Shown in pieces: positions 1-7,905 of a stretch of 41,181 bases of DNA. Position 1 is the first letter of the stretch. Every line of letters begins with the position of its first letter. The position numbers and the translations under genes were made by a program. This DNA is from an uncultured Candidatus Actinomarina sp. GTDB lineage: Bacteria > Actinomycetota > Acidimicrobiia > Actinomarinales > Actinomarinaceae. The stretch lies in contig CACODT010000009.1 in NCBI GenBank assembly GCA_902626065.1, forward strand, positions 1 to 41,181, given 5' to 3'. Below the pieces are notes generated by a model, which saw nothing but the letters and a program-made list of their open reading frames with translations, was not told the origin of the DNA and searched no databases.

Positions 1-1355
1 ATTGGACCGCTTACGACAGCTTTTAAAACTGAAAGAAAGAATAGGAAAAACGGTAAAAGTAAAATTAGAGATAAGAATAAAATCAATGTCAACGGAGTAC
101 TTATTAATGACCATAATAAACTAAAACCCTCCCCATAAATTGTAGGATTTCCTGCGTTAGCTCCAGCATTCCATGAATATCCGGAAATAATCCCTATTAA
201 AGCATTTGAAAATAAAGTACCAGAGACTACAAGTTTCAAAAGAAATGAAGTCATAGATTCAATTCTTGTGAATTTTATTTCTCTTCCAAAAATTTTCGGT
301 ATTAAATAATAAATAAATGAGACTGTTATCAAAATACAACTAAGTACATACCCATATCTAATTGCGATTTCAAAATTTGTGAGACTTAATATTGGAATAA
401 TGTTGGATAAAGATGAAACGATTTGAAAAATATTAGATACTACAAAAATACCGAAAGAAAAGCTTACAAGACCATAGATTATTTTATTTTCATCATTTCT
501 TGATGCCACAGTTCTAAAAAAGTTGACCGTAATAGCAAGTAATGGGAGAGAGAGACTTATTGATAGGTAAAGTGATATATTTTCTATCCAATTAGGCAAA
601 ACAGATCCAAAATAAAATTTGAAATTTGTCCATGGAAGAAGAAATAAAAAACCCCAAAAACCAATTGAGCCAAGTGTTTTACTATATAAAGTACCATTTA
701 TTCCCTTTGTGATCATGAAATGAAGTAGTGATAAAAACACAAAAGAATAACCCACATATATATGTGTAGAAATATACATTGCATTGATGAAAAAATTATC
801 ACTAAATACTACATAATCTCCTCGGTAGATAATTAATGAAATCAAATAAAAAATACTTGCTCCAAACAAATATTGACTACTGATAAATAGCGAGGGCTCT
901 TTTTTTGCAAGTATATTAAGTATTACTAAGCCAACAAATGCAAACAGCATTAGTATTTTAAAAAATAAAGTAAAACTTATATTTCCAAAAAAAAGGAAAT
1001 TTTCGGGAAATATGATTGCTAATAAAAGATCAAGAGATTCAAGCCCAATCACTCCTAAAGAAGTTAAAAAGAATATAGGAAATATTAATAATTTTCTTCC
1101 AAGTGTCTTTGGTAAGAGATAAACAGTCAAAAATACAATTAGAAACGAAAGAATTAAAGAATAAATTATATGATTATTTAATTTTTCTAAAAATCCACTA
1201 TTAAGGATATTATTTTGAGGAAGAATATTCGCAAAAACAAAATATGCCTCTTTTGTTAATGCAGTAATTCCAAATAATAAAAGTAATAATGGTGTTAAAA
1301 CGATAAAGAATTTTGAAAAGGCTTGTTCATTTTTCGGAAAAATTTTTATTCTCAT
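1..1355 (-). CDS. CcoN-like heme-copper oxidase subunit I paralogue, 3' end cut by window
   Basis: I translated this open minus-strand frame by hand from ATG at 1355; it runs off the left edge after about 451 codons. It is almost entirely membrane helices. Two stretches match cbb3 oxidase subunit I (CcoN) closely: residues about 221-265 (LYSKTLGSIGFWGF, then PNW, then AITVNFFRT) and about 325-352 (YYLIPKIFGRE). Known CcoN metal ligands are six His. Here H62 and H198 sit at the positions of the helix-2 heme ligand and first CuB ligand, but the adjacent CuB His-His pair aligns with K246-F247 and the helix-10 His-x-His with A331-I-R333. Spacing 198 to 246 to 331 resembles P. stutzeri CcoN (207, 257, 347). 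Family membership is seen in sequence; loss of oxidase chemistry is inference. It diverges from the bc operon. No clear Shine-Dalgarno precedes the ATG. Confidence 0.75.
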   Translation of the reverse strand, partial: MRIKIFPKNEQAFSKFFIVLTPLLLLLFGITALTKEAYFVFANILPQNNILNSGFLEKLNNHIIYSLILSFLIVFLTVYLLPKTLGRKLLIFPIFFLTSLGVIGLESLDLLLAIIFPENFLFFGNISFTLFFKILMLFAFVGLVILNILAKKEPSLFISSQYLFGASIFYLISLIIYRGDYVVFSDNFFINAMYISTHIYVGYSFVFLSLLHFMITKGINGTLYSKTLGSIGFWGFLFLLPWTNFKFYFGSVLPNWIENISLYLSISLSLPLLAITVNFFRTVASRNDENKIIYGLVSFSFGIFVVSNIFQIVSSLSNIIPILSLTNFEIAIRYGYVLSCILITVSFIYYLIPKIFGREIKFTRIESMTSFLLKLVVSGTLFSNALIGIISGYSWNAGANAGNPTIYGEGFSLLWSLISTPLTLILFLSLILLLPFFLFFLSVLKAVVSGP

Positions 1356-1526: not shown

Positions 1527-2120
1527 TTGTTAAATTTTATATTTGTTAATCGATACAAAATCGGTGTGGCTTTAATATTTGCCGGTGTTGGCGGTATTAC
1601 TATAGGTGTAATAATTGCACACTTTGCTGGGTTCCCAGAAGGCGAAGTAATTGATTATTTTAACTGGATGCCAAGAGGATGGCTGATGCAAACAATCGGT
1701 CAATTAATTGCATTTGGTGCTGGTCAATTCTTATTAATCGGCATGGCTATGTTGGCCTGGCAAGAATCAGAACTTACTTGGGCTAGAGCAACCTATTTAG
1801 CATTTTTGAGTTGGGTACAGTTTGCTTTAATTTTTGGAGTTTTACCATCAGAGTGGCTTAACTTATCCCAAGGACCACTTGAGTGGAGCAACCAAAGAGA
1901 ATTTATAAATTTCCCTCCAATTCTATTTTTAGGAAATGAAATAGGTATGAGTCTTGGAGCTTTGAAAGATATTATCCAAGTTGGAATATCAATGGGTGCT
2001 CTGATAACTGCTTTTGTTGTTGGTTATTTGATTCAAGATATAAATGAAGCAAAGGAAAAAGGTAAAACAAGAATTTCAGATTATGGAAAAGAGGTTGTGA
2101 AGGTAGGTGCTGATGGCTAA
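1527..2120 (+). CDS. Unknown multi-pass membrane protein, first gene of bc operon
   Basis: A 197-residue protein with hydrophobic segments at about 11-33, 55-77, 86-107 and 144-167, and a charged C-terminal tail. I do not recognise the family. The segment between helices 3 and 4 is rich in W and P (LPSEWLNLSQGPLEW, then FPPILFLGNE), suggesting a conserved loop at the membrane surface. The TTG start at 1527 is chosen because GAGGG lies just upstream at 1518-1522; a GTG near codon 14 is an alternative. Its 3' end overlaps the ferredoxin gene by 8 bases, so translation is probably coupled and the protein is probably an accessory or structural subunit of the bc complex. That role is inferred only from position. 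Confidence 0.7.
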   Translation: MLNFIFVNRYKIGVALIFAGVGGITIGVIIAHFAGFPEGEVIDYFNWMPRGWLMQTIGQLIAFGAGQFLLIGMAMLAWQESELTWARATYLAFLSWVQFALIFGVLPSEWLNLSQGPLEWSNQREFINFPPILFLGNEIGMSLGALKDIIQVGISMGALITAFVVGYLIQDINEAKEKGKTRISDYGKEVVKVGADG

Positions 2121-2562
2121 ATCAGAAGTACTTATCGAAATGCCTGAGTTTGAAAAAAAATACAATTTAGCAATGGTTGAATCTGAAAAGGTTTCATCTA
2201 GAGTAAGACCAAAACAGTTTCTCCATATAGACGAAGCAGAGTGTATTTTATGTGAAGGATGCGTAGATATTTGTCCTTGGAAGTGTATTCATTATTTATC
2301 AACAGAAGCAATTGAAGACTCTATAAATGTAGAGGCTCCAAGTATGGAAGAAAATGAAACAGGGTTCTTTGTTGTTGATGAAGAAGCATGCACCAGATGT
2401 GCATTATGTGTAGATAGATGCCCAACAGGGGTTATTTCACTTGGAAAATTTGCAGGATCTTTAGCTGATGCTGCCATTAAAAATGGCGTTTATGAGTCTC
2501 CATGGGATGAAGACTCAGGTGCAAGAAGTGATCGTCATGGCTATATATATGGAAGACTTTAA
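2113..2562 (+). CDS. 2[4Fe-4S] ferredoxin-like protein of the bc operon
   Basis: A 149-residue soluble protein with two complete 4Fe-4S motifs: C44-C47-C50-C54 followed by P, and C93-C96-C99-C103 followed by P. The second cysteine of one cluster's set, with proline after the last cysteine, is the pattern of bacterial 2[4Fe-4S] ferredoxins. About 40 residues precede the first cluster, 38 residues separate the motifs, and an acidic/aromatic tail of about 45 residues follows; these are long for a simple ferredoxin. No helix or signal peptide is visible, so it should face the cytoplasm. I chose ATG 2113 (ATGGCTAA overlapping the upstream stop) over GTG 2107. Its stop overlaps the next ATG by one base. 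Placement inside a bc operon suggests electron exchange with the cytochrome b; this is inference. Confidence 0.9.
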   Translation: MAKSEVLIEMPEFEKKYNLAMVESEKVSSRVRPKQFLHIDEAECILCEGCVDICPWKCIHYLSTEAIEDSINVEAPSMEENETGFFVVDEEACTRCALCVDRCPTGVISLGKFAGSLADAAIKNGVYESPWDEDSGARSDRHGYIYGRL

Positions 2563-3341
2563 TGAAAAACGAAAAAATTAAATTTAGAGATCGTATAAAA
2601 GACATAAGCGCAGGCCTTGGTGATTCATTAAAAGAGAGTACGCTTTGGGGAAGTATTTTTAGGCCAGGTTCTCCATTCAGAAAAGGTTATTCAGACAGTC
2701 CAAGAAATAGATCATATGTTGTGATGAACAACGTTTTATATCACTTACACCCCGTAAAAGTTAAAAGACACGGTGTTAGACTTTCCTACACTCTTTGTCT
2801 TGGAGGTCTGAGCTTTTTTACTTTTATAGTTTTAACTATCACTGGTATTTGGTTGATGTTTTACTTTAGACCAACGGAAATGGCATATGTCGATATACAG
2901 ACTTTACAGACAAGCATAGCTTTTGGTTCTCTTGTTAGGAATATGCATAGATGGGCTGCCCATATTATGGTTTTAGTTGTTTTTCTTCACATGTCTAGAG
3001 TTTTTTATCACGGCGCCTATAAAGCACCAAGAGAATTTAACTGGGTGATTGGTGTAATTTTGTTGATCTTAACATTGCTTCTTTCATTTACCGGTTATTT
3101 GCTTCCTTGGGATCAGTTAGCAATATGGGCCGTTACAGTTGGTGGCAATATGGCAGGCTATACGCCAGTATTTGGACAACAAGTTAAATTTGCATTATTT
3201 GCAGGTTTAGAAGCAACAGAAGCAACTTTATTGAGATTTTATGTTTTACATGTTCTGTTTTTACCATTTATTATCGTAATTTTTATGGCTATACATTTCT
3301 GGAGAGTCAGAAAGGACGGCGGGATTTCTGGTCCCCTTTAG
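2562..3341 (+). CDS. Cytochrome b6-like subunit (N-terminal half of cytochrome b)
   Basis: This is the diheme, four-helix half of cytochrome b, encoded separately as in b6f and Firmicutes complexes. Heme ligands are H129 and H143 (spacing 14) in helix 2 and H230 and H245 (spacing 15, the b6 type) in helix 4. The protein ends in RKDGGISGPL, like cytochrome b6. C79 in CLGG, at the start of helix 1, matches the cysteine that in b6 and Bacillus QcrB binds the extra heme ci/cn covalently. The N-terminus carries about 60 extra polar residues. It oxidises or reduces menaquinol in the membrane as the core of the bc complex. The stop at 3339-3341 is followed by a good ribosome site for the next gene. 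Confidence 0.93.
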   Translation: MKNEKIKFRDRIKDISAGLGDSLKESTLWGSIFRPGSPFRKGYSDSPRNRSYVVMNNVLYHLHPVKVKRHGVRLSYTLCLGGLSFFTFIVLTITGIWLMFYFRPTEMAYVDIQTLQTSIAFGSLVRNMHRWAAHIMVLVVFLHMSRVFYHGAYKAPREFNWVIGVILLILTLLLSFTGYLLPWDQLAIWAVTVGGNMAGYTPVFGQQVKFALFAGLEATEATLLRFYVLHVLFLPFIIVIFMAIHFWRVRKDGGISGPL

Positions 3342-3353
3342 CAAGAGGTTTTT

Positions 3354-4220
3354 ATGGTTGATATTCCTGAACATTTATTATTGAGAACTGCTGAAGCAAG
3401 AGCTAAAGCTTTAGGTATTACAGTTGAACAAGCGTTGGCAGAACTGAAAGGTGAATCAGCTCCTACAAAAATTGAGAAAGAGCCTGAAGTGCTTGACGTT
3501 TCACCAGTAGAAAAAGAAGTAAAAGAGACACCTCCACCTCCAGCAGCGGAAGTAAAAGAGACACCTCCACCTCCAGCAGCAGCTGTTAAGGAAGCACCTG
3601 CTCCAGCAGCCGCTGTAAAGGAAGCTCCAGCACCCACAAAAACAAATGGCAAAACAAATGGACAAATTCCTGCTGAAGTAGATTTTTCACCTGAAACAAA
3701 AGTAACTCAAAGATTATTGACTGTTGTAAAAGCCAAACCTATTCAAAAACCCGCTTCAGAACCAGTTGATAAAGTTAATACGTGGCCGCATTTAATGCTT
3801 CCTGAATTTATTTCGTTGATGGCTATGACAGCTTTCTTAATTTTTATTAGTGCAATTTTGCAAGCACCTTTATTGGAAGAGGCAAATCCTAATATCACTC
3901 CAAACCCAGCAAAAGCACCTTGGTATTTCTTAGGTTTACAAGAGTTGCTTTCATATTGGGATCCACAAATTGCAGGAGTCATGATTCCACTTTTGATTGG
4001 CGTTCTTGCATTTATGGCAATCCCATATATTGATAGAAACAAAGATAATAAGCCATCTAAAAGAAAATATGCAATAATGCTATGGACCTTTTTTCTGGCT
4101 GGTGCAGGTACTTTAAGTATTATTGGTATCTTATTCAGAGGCCCAGGTTGGAACTGGACATATCCGTGGATTGACGGTGTTTGGTTTGATGATTTGCTTG
4201 ACTGGGTCCACTTCGAATGA
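3354..4220 (+). CDS. Cytochrome b subunit IV-like protein (C-terminal half) with Pro/Ala-rich extension
   Basis: Residues about 144-288 form the C-terminal half of cytochrome b: three helices at about 151-170, 205-224 and 239-261, with the Qo-site motif at 188-191 reading APWY inside KAPWYFLGLQEL. Canonical PEWY has Glu where this has Pro; a Glu occurs at position 197. The first 140 residues are an unusual soluble extension that starts with an IPEHLL helix and continues into Pro/Ala/Lys-rich repeats (about residues 55-95). Such a linker could tether or space partners. AAGAGG at 3343-3348 supports ATG 3354. The gene overlaps the Rieske start by 4 bases. Identification as subunit IV is firm; the extension's role is unknown. 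Confidence 0.9.
   Translation: MVDIPEHLLLRTAEARAKALGITVEQALAELKGESAPTKIEKEPEVLDVSPVEKEVKETPPPPAAEVKETPPPPAAAVKEAPAPAAAVKEAPAPTKTNGKTNGQIPAEVDFSPETKVTQRLLTVVKAKPIQKPASEPVDKVNTWPHLMLPEFISLMAMTAFLIFISAILQAPLLEEANPNITPNPAKAPWYFLGLQELLSYWDPQIAGVMIPLLIGVLAFMAIPYIDRNKDNKPSKRKYAIMLWTFFLAGAGTLSIIGILFRGPGWNWTYPWIDGVWFDDLLDWVHFE
3516..3581 (+). repeat. Two tandem 33-base repeats plus two decayed units
   Basis: Two near-identical 33-base units (3516-3548 and 3549-3581) encode EVKETPPPPAA twice. Two further, diverged units to about 3630 encode VKEAPAP(AAA). The repeat is in frame within the subunit IV extension, so copy-number change would alter linker length without a frameshift. Confidence 0.85.
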
Positions 4221-5098
4221 CTCTTGTTGAGCTTTCTTTTATTGCAATAGCATTTATTGGAGTATTTGGTGTTATTGGGATAGCAGCTGTAGTAACTGGT
4301 AGAACTCCAAGAGCTGTAACAAAGAGATTAAATTGGAAAAAAAACCTTGATAAAAAAGCATTAAAAGTTGATAAATCCGAAACAAATTTTTTAGCTCCAG
4401 ATGAGCCAGATCTAGAAGAAGAAAATGTATCTGAGGATACTGAAATAGATGATGAAGATACTAACACTGACGGTTCAATTGCAATAAAAGAAGAAGTTAT
4501 ATATGAAGAAATTTCAGAGGAAGAAGCTGGAATGACCCGTAGACAATTTTTAGGTAAAGCTCTTGGAATTACTTTTGGAGCGTTTGCTGGTATTCAACTT
4601 ATTTCATGGCTTGGTTTCTTTTATCCAAAAGTTTCTGGAGGATTTGGTTCTAAAATTGATGCAGGTAGGGTAGATGATTTGAAAGATCAAATTTTTCAAT
4701 CTGATGGTTCGGTTATTCCTGCATTCATACCTTCTGCTAGAGCATATGTATTGCCATTTAACGATGAAGGTCAATCTCAGTTTTCCGATAGTGGAACTAT
4801 TGCAGACGGACTAGTTGCTGTATATCAACGCTGTGTTCACCTAGGTTGCAGGGTTCCTTGGTGTAACACGTCTCAAGGTTTTGAATGTCCTTGTCATGGT
4901 TCAAAGTACAACATGCTAGGTGAATATTATGCGGGACCCGCCCCGAGAAATCTGGATAGATTTATTGTCAGCGTAAATTCAGCTGGAAAATTTATAATTG
5001 ATACAGGATCAATTATCGAATCACCAAGAGCTGCAGGAATGTCAATTAAATACCCTCAAGGGCTTTCTTGCATAACAATCGCAGAGACAGAAGAGTAA
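4217..5098 (+). CDS. Rieske [2Fe-2S] iron-sulfur protein of the bc complex
   Basis: Rieske boxes are complete: CVHLGC at 206-211 and CPCHGS at 224-229, giving cluster ligands C206, H208, C224, H227 and the usual disulfide pair C211/C226. A GPAPR loop follows, as in bc-complex Rieske proteins. There are two hydrophobic segments: an N-terminal helix at about 5-27 and a second at 115-136 preceded by RRQFLG, which resembles a Tat-type twin arginine. Between them lies a long acidic stretch (about 60-104, mostly D/E), not usual in this family. The protein takes one electron from quinol at the Qo site and passes it to cytochrome c. It overlaps subunit IV by 4 bases and is followed 2 bases later by the cytochrome gene. 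Confidence 0.95.
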   Translation: MTLVELSFIAIAFIGVFGVIGIAAVVTGRTPRAVTKRLNWKKNLDKKALKVDKSETNFLAPDEPDLEEENVSEDTEIDDEDTNTDGSIAIKEEVIYEEISEEEAGMTRRQFLGKALGITFGAFAGIQLISWLGFFYPKVSGGFGSKIDAGRVDDLKDQIFQSDGSVIPAFIPSARAYVLPFNDEGQSQFSDSGTIADGLVAVYQRCVHLGCRVPWCNTSQGFECPCHGSKYNMLGEYYAGPAPRNLDRFIVSVNSAGKFIIDTGSIIESPRAAGMSIKYPQGLSCITIAETEE

Positions 5099-5100
5099 AT

Positions 5101-6525
5101 ATGAATAGTTCATTTTTTATAACATTGATATCTTTGGCAATTATTGGTGCAATTGCTTATTTCTCAGCAGTAGGTTTTCGTGGTGCTGGAAAAATAAAAA
5201 AAGTTCCAAGAAATCTTTCAAATTATTTATCTGATGACGAATTAGAGACTACCCATCTTGATAAGACATTATCAGTAGCTGTTGTTCTTGCTTCACTATT
5301 GACCATCATGATTCCGTTATATTATCTTGGTGAACCAGCCAGACAAGAAAGCTTTGTCGAAGAGTTCGATGATGTATCTGTTGAAAGAGGAAAGCATTTA
5401 TATGAAGAGTTTGGGTGTGGAAATTGTCATGGAGCAGACGGTAGTGGAGGAGCTGCCTCATATGTCGAAAAAAGGAGTGGAGTAAGTGTAACTTGGGTAG
5501 CTCCAGCAATCAATAATGTTTTTTATAGATATGATGATGATGAAGTTTTGTATTGGCTTATTTATGGAAGAGCGAACTCACCTATGCCTGCTTGGGGATT
5601 AAAAGGTGGCGGTCCTATGAATGATGGTCAATTAGATGACTTAATTGATTATTTACACTATTTTCAGATTTCACAAAATGAAGAATTACAATCAATTGAG
5701 CAAAATATTAACTCTTCATTGCTAAGAATTGAAAGTTCTGACTTACAAGTTGAAAGTGAAATTGAAAAACAAAAAGAATTAATTGAAAATATTAAAGCTG
5801 CTCCTCAAAGGCTTCCTGTAGCTGTTGAGGCAGTTGAAATTGTATCGGCAATCTTGGCAAGACAAAATGGAATCGATACCGATGAAGATGGGTTGTTTGA
5901 TTCTGTTGAAACAGACATTTCTACATACAGTGAAACAATTTCAGAAGTATTAGGAACATCTATATTAAACCTAAATCCCGATGAACCCGAGTCAACACCT
6001 GGAAGAAAAGATGGATCAGTTGTAAGAGGATACTTATCAGATCTTGAAACAAGTGTTATTAACCTGGGTATTCTTAGTGAAGGTTACGATAAATTCATTA
6101 ATGAGGCTGAAAAAGGCTTAGCATTTCTAGAAAACGCTTACGATCAGAAATTATGGCTTATCGACTATCAGGATATCGCAGATTCAACATTTGATGGAGA
6201 TTATGACAAAGCTGTAAGAGCAGTTGGAATATTTAATGCTTACTGTGCAAGATGTCATACCGCTGGTTATTCCGCAGGAGCGGCATACACAAAAATAATT
6301 GGTTCTGGGGGATTAGGTCCAGCTTTAAGAGGAGGCAGGGTAAACATACAGTTTAAAGAAAGAGATGATTTCGTTGATTTTATTATCAATGGGTCTGTAA
6401 ATGGTAAAGGTTATGGAGTCAACGGTGTTGGTGGAGGAAAAATGCCTGGTTTTGGGGCAGTACTACCTCAGTCAGATATAGAATTAGTAATAGATTATTT
6501 GAGAGGAATGAAACCAGATGCGTGA
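5101..6525 (+). CDS. Membrane-anchored di-heme cytochrome c of the bc complex
   Basis: 474 residues from ATG 5101 (GAAGAG a few bases upstream; an upstream non-ATG extension to 5068 overlaps rieske and is unlikely). Two helices at about 5-26 and 57-76 precede two cytochrome c domains with heme sites CGNCH (106-110) and CARCH (382-386); M162 (PMPAW) and M448 (KMPGFG) are likely axial Met ligands. The domains are separated by about 190 residues containing a probable coiled coil (about 192-235) and an acidic calcium-type loop DTDEDGLFD at 259-267 like thrombospondin-3 repeats. It would carry electrons from the Rieske centre toward an oxidase on the outer face of the membrane. The long insert is unusual for this family. 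Confidence 0.93.
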   Translation: MNSSFFITLISLAIIGAIAYFSAVGFRGAGKIKKVPRNLSNYLSDDELETTHLDKTLSVAVVLASLLTIMIPLYYLGEPARQESFVEEFDDVSVERGKHLYEEFGCGNCHGADGSGGAASYVEKRSGVSVTWVAPAINNVFYRYDDDEVLYWLIYGRANSPMPAWGLKGGGPMNDGQLDDLIDYLHYFQISQNEELQSIEQNINSSLLRIESSDLQVESEIEKQKELIENIKAAPQRLPVAVEAVEIVSAILARQNGIDTDEDGLFDSVETDISTYSETISEVLGTSILNLNPDEPESTPGRKDGSVVRGYLSDLETSVINLGILSEGYDKFINEAEKGLAFLENAYDQKLWLIDYQDIADSTFDGDYDKAVRAVGIFNAYCARCHTAGYSAGAAYTKIIGSGGLGPALRGGRVNIQFKERDDFVDFIINGSVNGKGYGVNGVGGGKMPGFGAVLPQSDIELVIDYLRGMKPDA

Positions 6526-6927: not shown

Positions 6928-7887
6928 ATGGAATTTATAATCTCAATCGTAAGAAGTGTAATATTATTCGGTCTTTTAATATTTATTGCTTTCAGAATAT
7001 TTAGAATCTTAAGACCATTTGAAAAAGGTTTAGTTGAAAGATTTGGAAAGTACAATCGTGAAGCTACCGCGGGTCTAAATATCGTTATACCTGGAATTGA
7101 AAAATTGATAATTGTTGACATGAGAGAACAAGTCATTGACGTACCTCCACAAGAAGTAATTACAAAAGATAATGTAACAATTACTGTTGATGCAGTTATT
7201 TACTATGAACCAACAGATCCTAAGAAGCTTGTTTATAATGTTGGAGATTTTATTACAGCTGCAACTAAATTAGCACAGACAAACTTAAGAAATGTTGTTG
7301 GTGATCTAGAATTAGACGCTGCTCTTACATCAAGAGAAACAATAAATACTTCGTTGAAATTGATACTTGATGAGGCTACTGATAAATGGGGCACAAGAGT
7401 TGTTCGAGTTGAGATTCAAAGAATAGATCCTCCTCAAGATGTTCAAGATGCAATGAACAAGGTGATGAAAGCTGAAAGAGATAGAAGAGCAGCTGTTACT
7501 GAGGCTGAGGGTGAAAAAAGAGCTGCAATTTTGACAGCAGAAGGTGAAAGAGAGTCACAAATTCTAAGTGCTCAGGGTGAAGCTGAAGCACTTAAGCAAG
7601 TTGCTGATGCTGAAAAGTATGAAAGAGTTGTTACTGCAGAGGGTGAAGCGGAAGCAATAGAAAAAGTTTTTAAAGCAATCCACGAAGGAGATCCCTCCAA
7701 TGACTTAATTGCTATAAAATATTTAGAGTCACTTGAAAAAGTAGCAAATGGTAAAGCTACAAAAATATTTTTACCAGCTGATCTATCTGCAACATTAGGA
7801 AGTATCGGGGCAATTTCAGAATTGTTTAAAGATGATCAAGAAGTTTCAAAAGATAAAAAGAATCCTAAAGCTAAAGAACAAAAGTAA
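6928..7887 (+). CDS. SPFH/band 7 (stomatin/QmcA-like) membrane protein
   Basis: 319 residues: an N-terminal membrane segment (about 5-25), then a band 7 domain beginning with [14 protein letters not shown] and containing [19 protein letters not shown], followed by an Ala/Glu-rich coiled coil (about 185-260; repeated AEGE) that drives oligomer assembly in this family, and a basic tail. Members form large ring or cage assemblies in the membrane and often modulate proteases such as FtsH; no NfeD-type partner is seen here. It begins 41 bases after the bc operon, so it could be transcribed with it or separately. The stop directly abuts the stop of the convergent nucleoside hydrolase. Confidence 0.9.
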
Positions 7888-7905
7888 TTAAATTAAACTA
7901 CTTTT
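7880..7905. terminator. Weak hairpin across two abutting stop codons
   Basis: AAAAGTA (7880-7886) pairs with TACTTTT (7899-7905) around a 12-base loop, with an A-tract on one side and T-tract on the other, as in bidirectional terminators. It spans the ends of both convergent genes. The stem has almost no G/C, so termination strength is doubtful. Confidence 0.3.

Follow-up and report, generated by a model that had tools for sequence, protein, structure and literature searches.

Heme-copper oxidase subunit I is a textbook catalytic core, and six His ligands define the superfamily. Nitric oxide reductase NorB, which has these His ligands, shares the superfamily fold but has NorC as its partner rather than CcoO/CcoP-like proteins. 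The closest described relative of the protein reported here is CcoN, the catalytic subunit I of cbb3-type (C-type) heme-copper oxygen reductases (PDB 3mk7, 8smr and 9g6b), which it resembles in fold, length and profile. Structural Gly, Pro and Trp residues and the gene order CcoN-CcoO-CcoP are common to both; however, our protein (hereafter the CcoN-like protein) lacks all six His ligands and the cross-linked Tyr. In bc1-cbb3 supercomplexes, TMH8/9 of CcoN and the helix of CcoP form the contacts (PMC7876108). The supercomplexes of R. capsulatus and P. aeruginosa (PMC7876108, PDB 8smr) have a cbb3 module beside complex III, as is likely here, but their cbb3 is an active oxidase, which the CcoN-like protein cannot be (aa3 is terminal in our case), and the association described below is read from gene order only. 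The bcc-aa3 supercomplex of Corynebacterium and Mycobacterium has a diheme cytochrome c in its bc part and aa3 as the terminal oxidase, both as in Actinomarina, but contains no CcoN-like module. The Actinomarina bc operon also differs from it in having a b6/subunit IV-type cytochrome b, a ferredoxin-like protein and two membrane proteins of 197 and 122 aa.

The window, i.e., the whole stretch of DNA analyzed, is the complete contig CACODT010000009.1 (C9 of the genome, 41181 bases) of a streamlined marine actinobacterium of the class Acidimicrobiia, an uncultured Candidatus Actinomarina sp. (20 contigs totaling 1.02 Mb; completeness 89%). Two divergent operons lie at its beginning, with the following features:

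3..1355, minus strand: ligand-free CcoN-like protein (homolog of cbb3 subunit I), 451 aa
1356..1526, no strand: intergenic region between the two divergent operons
1527..2120, plus strand: 197-aa membrane protein, conserved first gene of the bc operon
2107..2562, plus strand: ferredoxin-like protein (2x[4Fe-4S]) encoded in the bc operon
2562..3341, plus strand: cytochrome b6-type subunit (PetB-like)
3354..4220, plus strand: subunit IV-like protein (PetD), with an N-terminal domain shared by the CcoO-like and CcoP-like proteins
3354..3467, plus strand: this shared N-terminal domain on the PetD-like protein, of the P-E-x-L-x-x-R-[ST]-A-E-A-R-A type
4217..5098, plus strand: Rieske [2Fe-2S] protein
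5101..6525, plus strand: diheme cytochrome c with two CxxCH motifs, start set from a relative in locus L056
6518..6886, plus strand: 122-aa membrane protein without a family; its conserved gene closes the bc operon

The open frame of the CcoN-like gene starts with an ATG at 1355 and runs off the contig end, which removes the last ~16 aa of the C terminus; uncut orthologs in the genus are 462-467 aa long.

Homology to CcoN and the metal-binding sites

The Pfam COX1 model (PF00115) scored 34.1 bits against the cut protein of the window (curated cut-off 34.8) and 34.9 bits against the genome frame of the same gene, and relatives of the protein scored 76-139 bits. The best PDB sequence matches were CcoN chains of cbb3 oxidases (E 1e-8). 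A profile made from ligand-bearing CcoN alone recovered all 65 ligand-free members with E values of 2e-92 to 2e-16 (2.8e-20 for the window protein), and at the sequence level homology of the ligand-free protein to CcoN is not in doubt. The protein fell outside the NCBIfam ccoN equivalog (TIGR00780), with 39 bits against a cut-off of 583. An AF2 model built on 21 genus sequences had a mean pLDDT of 59.7 and a pTM of 0.67. Foldseek searches of the PDB placed CcoN first (9g6b, TM 0.73, E 5.8e-8), followed by NOR and, after it, the A and B type oxidases, which is consistent with the 12-helix fold of subunit I in a model of moderate confidence. The model was weakest at residues 237-258, too weak there for judging the former heme pocket. 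Two other identities were considered and rejected: NorB matched with TM values of 0.67-0.69, below CcoN, and the partners are CcoO/CcoP-like and not NorC; as for NnrS, COX1 was the sole Pfam match at E values up to 1.

We then aligned, using MAFFT, 72 sequences comprising the 65 ligand-free members and seven ligand-bearing CcoN, three of them proteobacterial and four from the same phylum (Actinomycetota). At the six ligand columns, His was present in 7/7 ligand-bearing CcoN and in 0, 0, 2, 0, 0 and 2% of the ligand-free sequences; the corresponding window residues in this alignment are N60, S196, K246, F247, I332 and Y334. The cross-linked active-site Tyr of helix 7 was found in all seven ligand-bearing CcoN but in none of the 65 other sequences, and the ligand-free members also lacked another conserved His, H338 in P. 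aeruginosa. Conserved columns of the ligand-free family were mainly Gly, Pro, Trp and Arg, and no family-wide conserved His, Met or Cys column was present in the 72-row alignment. Judged from these alignments, all six ligands of heme b, heme b3 and CuB are lost, and this loss is not due to chance because 65/65 relatives agree. An alignment artifact was also rejected, as phmmer, the 72-row MAFFT alignment and the profile from ligand-bearing CcoN concurred except for a two-column ambiguity around H198. We infer that the CcoN-like protein binds neither heme nor copper, and without the ligands O2 reduction and proton pumping are not expected of it.

An earlier note on this DNA, made from the letters alone, had described a conserved, non-catalytic CcoN-like protein lacking four of six ligands. 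The PF00115 search and the alignment to CcoN, together with the PDB and Foldseek matches, bear out the CcoN-like assignment. Conservation without catalysis also holds, with the ligand loss seen in 65/65 relatives and the family in 73/198 genomes of the class, but the count rises from four lost ligands to six. The note aligned the CuB His-His pair with K246-F247, exactly as obtained with phmmer and in the 72-row alignment. It was right that the His-x-His of helix 10 is lost but placed it at A331 and R333, one residue off from I332 and Y334. The two His residues that it regarded as retained ligands did not survive the comparison of ligand positions in orthologs. H62 was rejected as a low-spin heme ligand, since its column holds H in only eight of 27 genus orthologs, with Q in 15 and K in 4, and the ligand column is occupied by N60. 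H198 is, like K246, invariant in 28/28 genus orthologs, and the phmmer pairwise alignment sets it on a CuB His; yet in the 72-row alignment it lies two columns off the CuB His column (S196 in the window), and at its position His is missing from all relatives outside the genus.

Distribution, phylogeny and gene neighborhood

We identified the CcoN-like family in 73 of 198 sampled Acidimicrobiia genomes, leaving out one marginal match. Within the genus, the gene was present in 28 of 34 relatives (genomes of ~1 Mb), and most of the others were fragmentary. One further contig, filed as part of an uncultured Bacteroidetes MAG (L033, CAJWHM010000051.1), carried the Actinomarina gene at 99% identity, probably as a result of binning contamination. 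Ligand-free CcoN-CcoO pairs also occurred outside the class but within the phylum (genomes G225, G239, G243, G253 and G352), and at some of these loci bc and cytochrome c maturation genes were located within a few kb of the pair. No description of a ligand-free CcoN family was found in the CC-licensed literature.

Phylogenetic analysis of the 72 rows with IQ-TREE placed the ligand-free sequences on one side of a single branch (support 98/96). As the ligands are present in every other known heme-copper family, the most parsimonious reading is one loss. The stem branch leading to Actinomarina was long (2.83), and its placement within the ligand-free set was poorly supported. Compared with its nearer relatives, the window gene had dN/dS values of 0.04-0.07, with dS near saturation, so that only the qualitative point is safe, namely that the sequences indicate purifying selection. 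Structure and selection both support a working protein. A sequencing error or a pseudogene was rejected, as orthologs are open in dozens of independent genomes and dN/dS is low.

The CcoN-like gene, which is linked to cytochrome b, Rieske and cytochrome c genes, was head to head with the cytochrome b gene in all 52 class loci, and a CcoP-like gene was present on the CcoN strand in 51 of them. The position opposite an unusual bc operon, which the earlier note had pointed out for this one stretch, is thus class-wide. The 2x[4Fe-4S] ferredoxin-like gene (2107-2562), immediately ahead of cytochrome b, is a fixed member of the bc operon throughout the class; complex III does not usually contain a ferredoxin subunit. 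The 197- and 122-aa membrane proteins that frame the operon had no match to a Pfam or NCBIfam family, and an AF2 model of the former, built on one sequence, had a pLDDT of 49, too low for use. A strong form of the 197-aa protein was found in 71 of the 73 genomes with the CcoN-like protein; in the two genomes with the strong form but no CcoN-like protein, the contig ends at the 197-aa gene. The CcoN-negative half of the class shares this bc operon and has a weaker relative of the 197-aa protein, with only a CcoP-like gene in the divergent slot (six loci read). CcoN-negative loci with a bc operon and a lone CcoP-like cytochrome c are L156, L157, L158, L159, L160 and L163. Because CcoN-negative relatives keep only the CcoP-like protein, it is the constant part and CcoN and CcoO are accessory. 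It seems that part of the class later dropped CcoN and CcoO while keeping the CcoP-like protein, although the tree alone is no proof of this direction.

In uncut genus genomes, the CcoN-like gene is followed by a CcoO-like and then a CcoP-like gene (CxxCH), an operon with heme c subunits of which the contig end in the window removes both. The CcoO-like protein of the genus contains the motif CQSCHTQNVR and scored 28.5 bits with the FixO model (cut-off 29.6). In other families, CcoN and CcoO are fused into one protein. The axial Met of the CcoO-like protein is seemingly replaced by His in several families, as read by eye around the motif, and such a replacement would change the heme potential. 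A CcoO-like protein without CxxCH (CWFCAATT) was detected at positions 4054-4506 of locus L149, with the gene pair retained. The redox role of the partners may vary among families.

The genome has one intact aa3 operon, encoding CoxA (His motifs present), CoxB (CxxCH domain at the C terminus) and CoxC. The earlier note had proposed a check for a second, intact subunit I, and this CoxA, located elsewhere in the genome, provides it. Cytochrome bd was not found in the source genome or in six related genomes. With aa3 intact and no bd found, there is no need for the CcoN-like protein to act as an oxidase. A ferredoxin-only complex I was rejected, as NuoF is present.

Possible roles of the CcoN-like protein

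The loss of all ligands and the head-to-head arrangement with complex III genes suggest that the protein is probably a retired enzyme that now serves as a cytochrome scaffold. We consider it rather probable that an ancient cbb3 oxidase became a non-catalytic membrane scaffold for c-type cytochromes beside complex III, with electrons moving towards aa3. The sites for heme b, heme b3 and CuB would have disappeared from a cbb3-type subunit I a single time, at an early stage of the studied Actinomycetota lineage, and the protein would have persisted as a metal-free 12-helix membrane scaffold. Together with the CcoO-like and CcoP-like proteins, in which the c-heme motifs are usually kept, it would form a module on the menaquinol:cytochrome c (bc-type) complex. 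Electrons would pass from menaquinol via cytochrome b and the Rieske protein to the diheme cytochrome c, then to the CcoP/CcoO-like hemes held by the CcoN-like scaffold, and finally through the cytochrome c domain of CoxB to aa3 oxidase and O2. From gene order, we infer a physical association of the module with the bc complex, and the flow through it would presumably run from bc to aa3. The head-to-head genes and the shared N-terminal domain suggest a complex and do not prove one. If the CcoP helix and CcoN TMH8/9 serve as a contact to bc1, this would explain why these parts have outlived catalysis.

The roles named in the earlier note were an assembly factor, a structural scaffold and a proton or ion channel. 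The scaffold is the best supported of these because CcoO-like and CcoP-like cytochrome c genes follow the gene. A role in the assembly of the bc complex or aa3, without permanent membership in either, agrees with the ligand-free CcoN-CcoO genes that lie near cytochrome c maturation and bc genes outside the class (L147, L148 and L150). However, this role is unlikely, as the module keeps its own heme c subunits (CcoO-like and CcoP-like), which is expected of a complex and not of a chaperone, and half of the class does without the CcoN-like protein yet keeps the bc operon.

A channel with a retained proton pathway, which would adjust the proton motive force beside complex III, is quite improbable and stays without positive support. 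The CcoN fold appears to be retained in the model, and 36 of the 65 ligand-free members have the Glu that corresponds to P. aeruginosa E126 and is present in every ligand-bearing CcoN; but it is absent from the other 29, E123 is kept in only 13, and the conserved columns described above contain no polar path shared family-wide. We give an equally small chance to a protein that still binds a metal or heme through different residues (in Actinomarina, such as H198 and K246) and has a catalytic or electron-transfer role. Both residues are invariant in the genus and at or near former CuB sites, with one pairwise alignment in favor, but the family has no conserved His, Met or Cys column, and H198 is absent outside the genus though synteny and partners are unchanged there. 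A decaying gene without a present role, to which the high divergence, the long Actinomarina stem and the loss of CcoN and CcoO (with CcoP-like kept) in the other half of the class could point, is very hard to reconcile with its retention in streamlined ~1 Mb genomes (28/34 genus relatives), open frames of constant length and low dN/dS.

If the scaffold reading is correct, a ligand-free clade that keeps the fold, the cytochrome partners and the site beside complex III would be a respiratory pseudoenzyme, showing a route for turning an oxidase into an electron-transfer scaffold. An annotation as "cytochrome c oxidase cbb3 subunit I", or a profile match of this kind, is no sign of a high-affinity oxidase in these Actinomycetota, which include abundant marine and other members.

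The shared N-terminal domain

A domain of ~40 aa (P-E-x-L-x-x-R-S-A-E-A-R-A-x-x-x-G-x-x-V) is common to the N termini of PetD and the CcoO-like and CcoP-like proteins (L056, 8560-8700 and 7749-7889 for the latter two). The same genome has it on three other proteins, namely a NuoI-like protein encoded next to NuoH and NuoJ, the alpha chain of a 2-oxoacid:ferredoxin oxidoreductase and a membrane protein encoded next to the aa3 operon; these copies are at L176 762-1538, L175 near 4170-4275 and L174 1454-2584. No Pfam model for this domain was found in the searches made. Its distribution suggests a common docking partner, which we regard as a lead and not a result, and possibly a common docking tag of a respirasome. 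A broader proposal, which we offer tentatively and regard as doubtful, is that Actinomycetota have a novel type of complex III to which the metal-free pseudo-cbb3 permanently belongs and that, with the domain, this pseudo-cbb3 organizes one respirasome; the carriers would be the bc subunit IV, the CcoO-like, CcoP-like and NuoI-like proteins, the oxidoreductase and the aa3-locus membrane protein. In genome G006, the first ~47 residues of the CcoO-like (L056 7885-8700) and CcoP-like (6942-7889) proteins are identical, suggesting that the N-terminal domain was duplicated, or homogenized by gene conversion, in the recent past.
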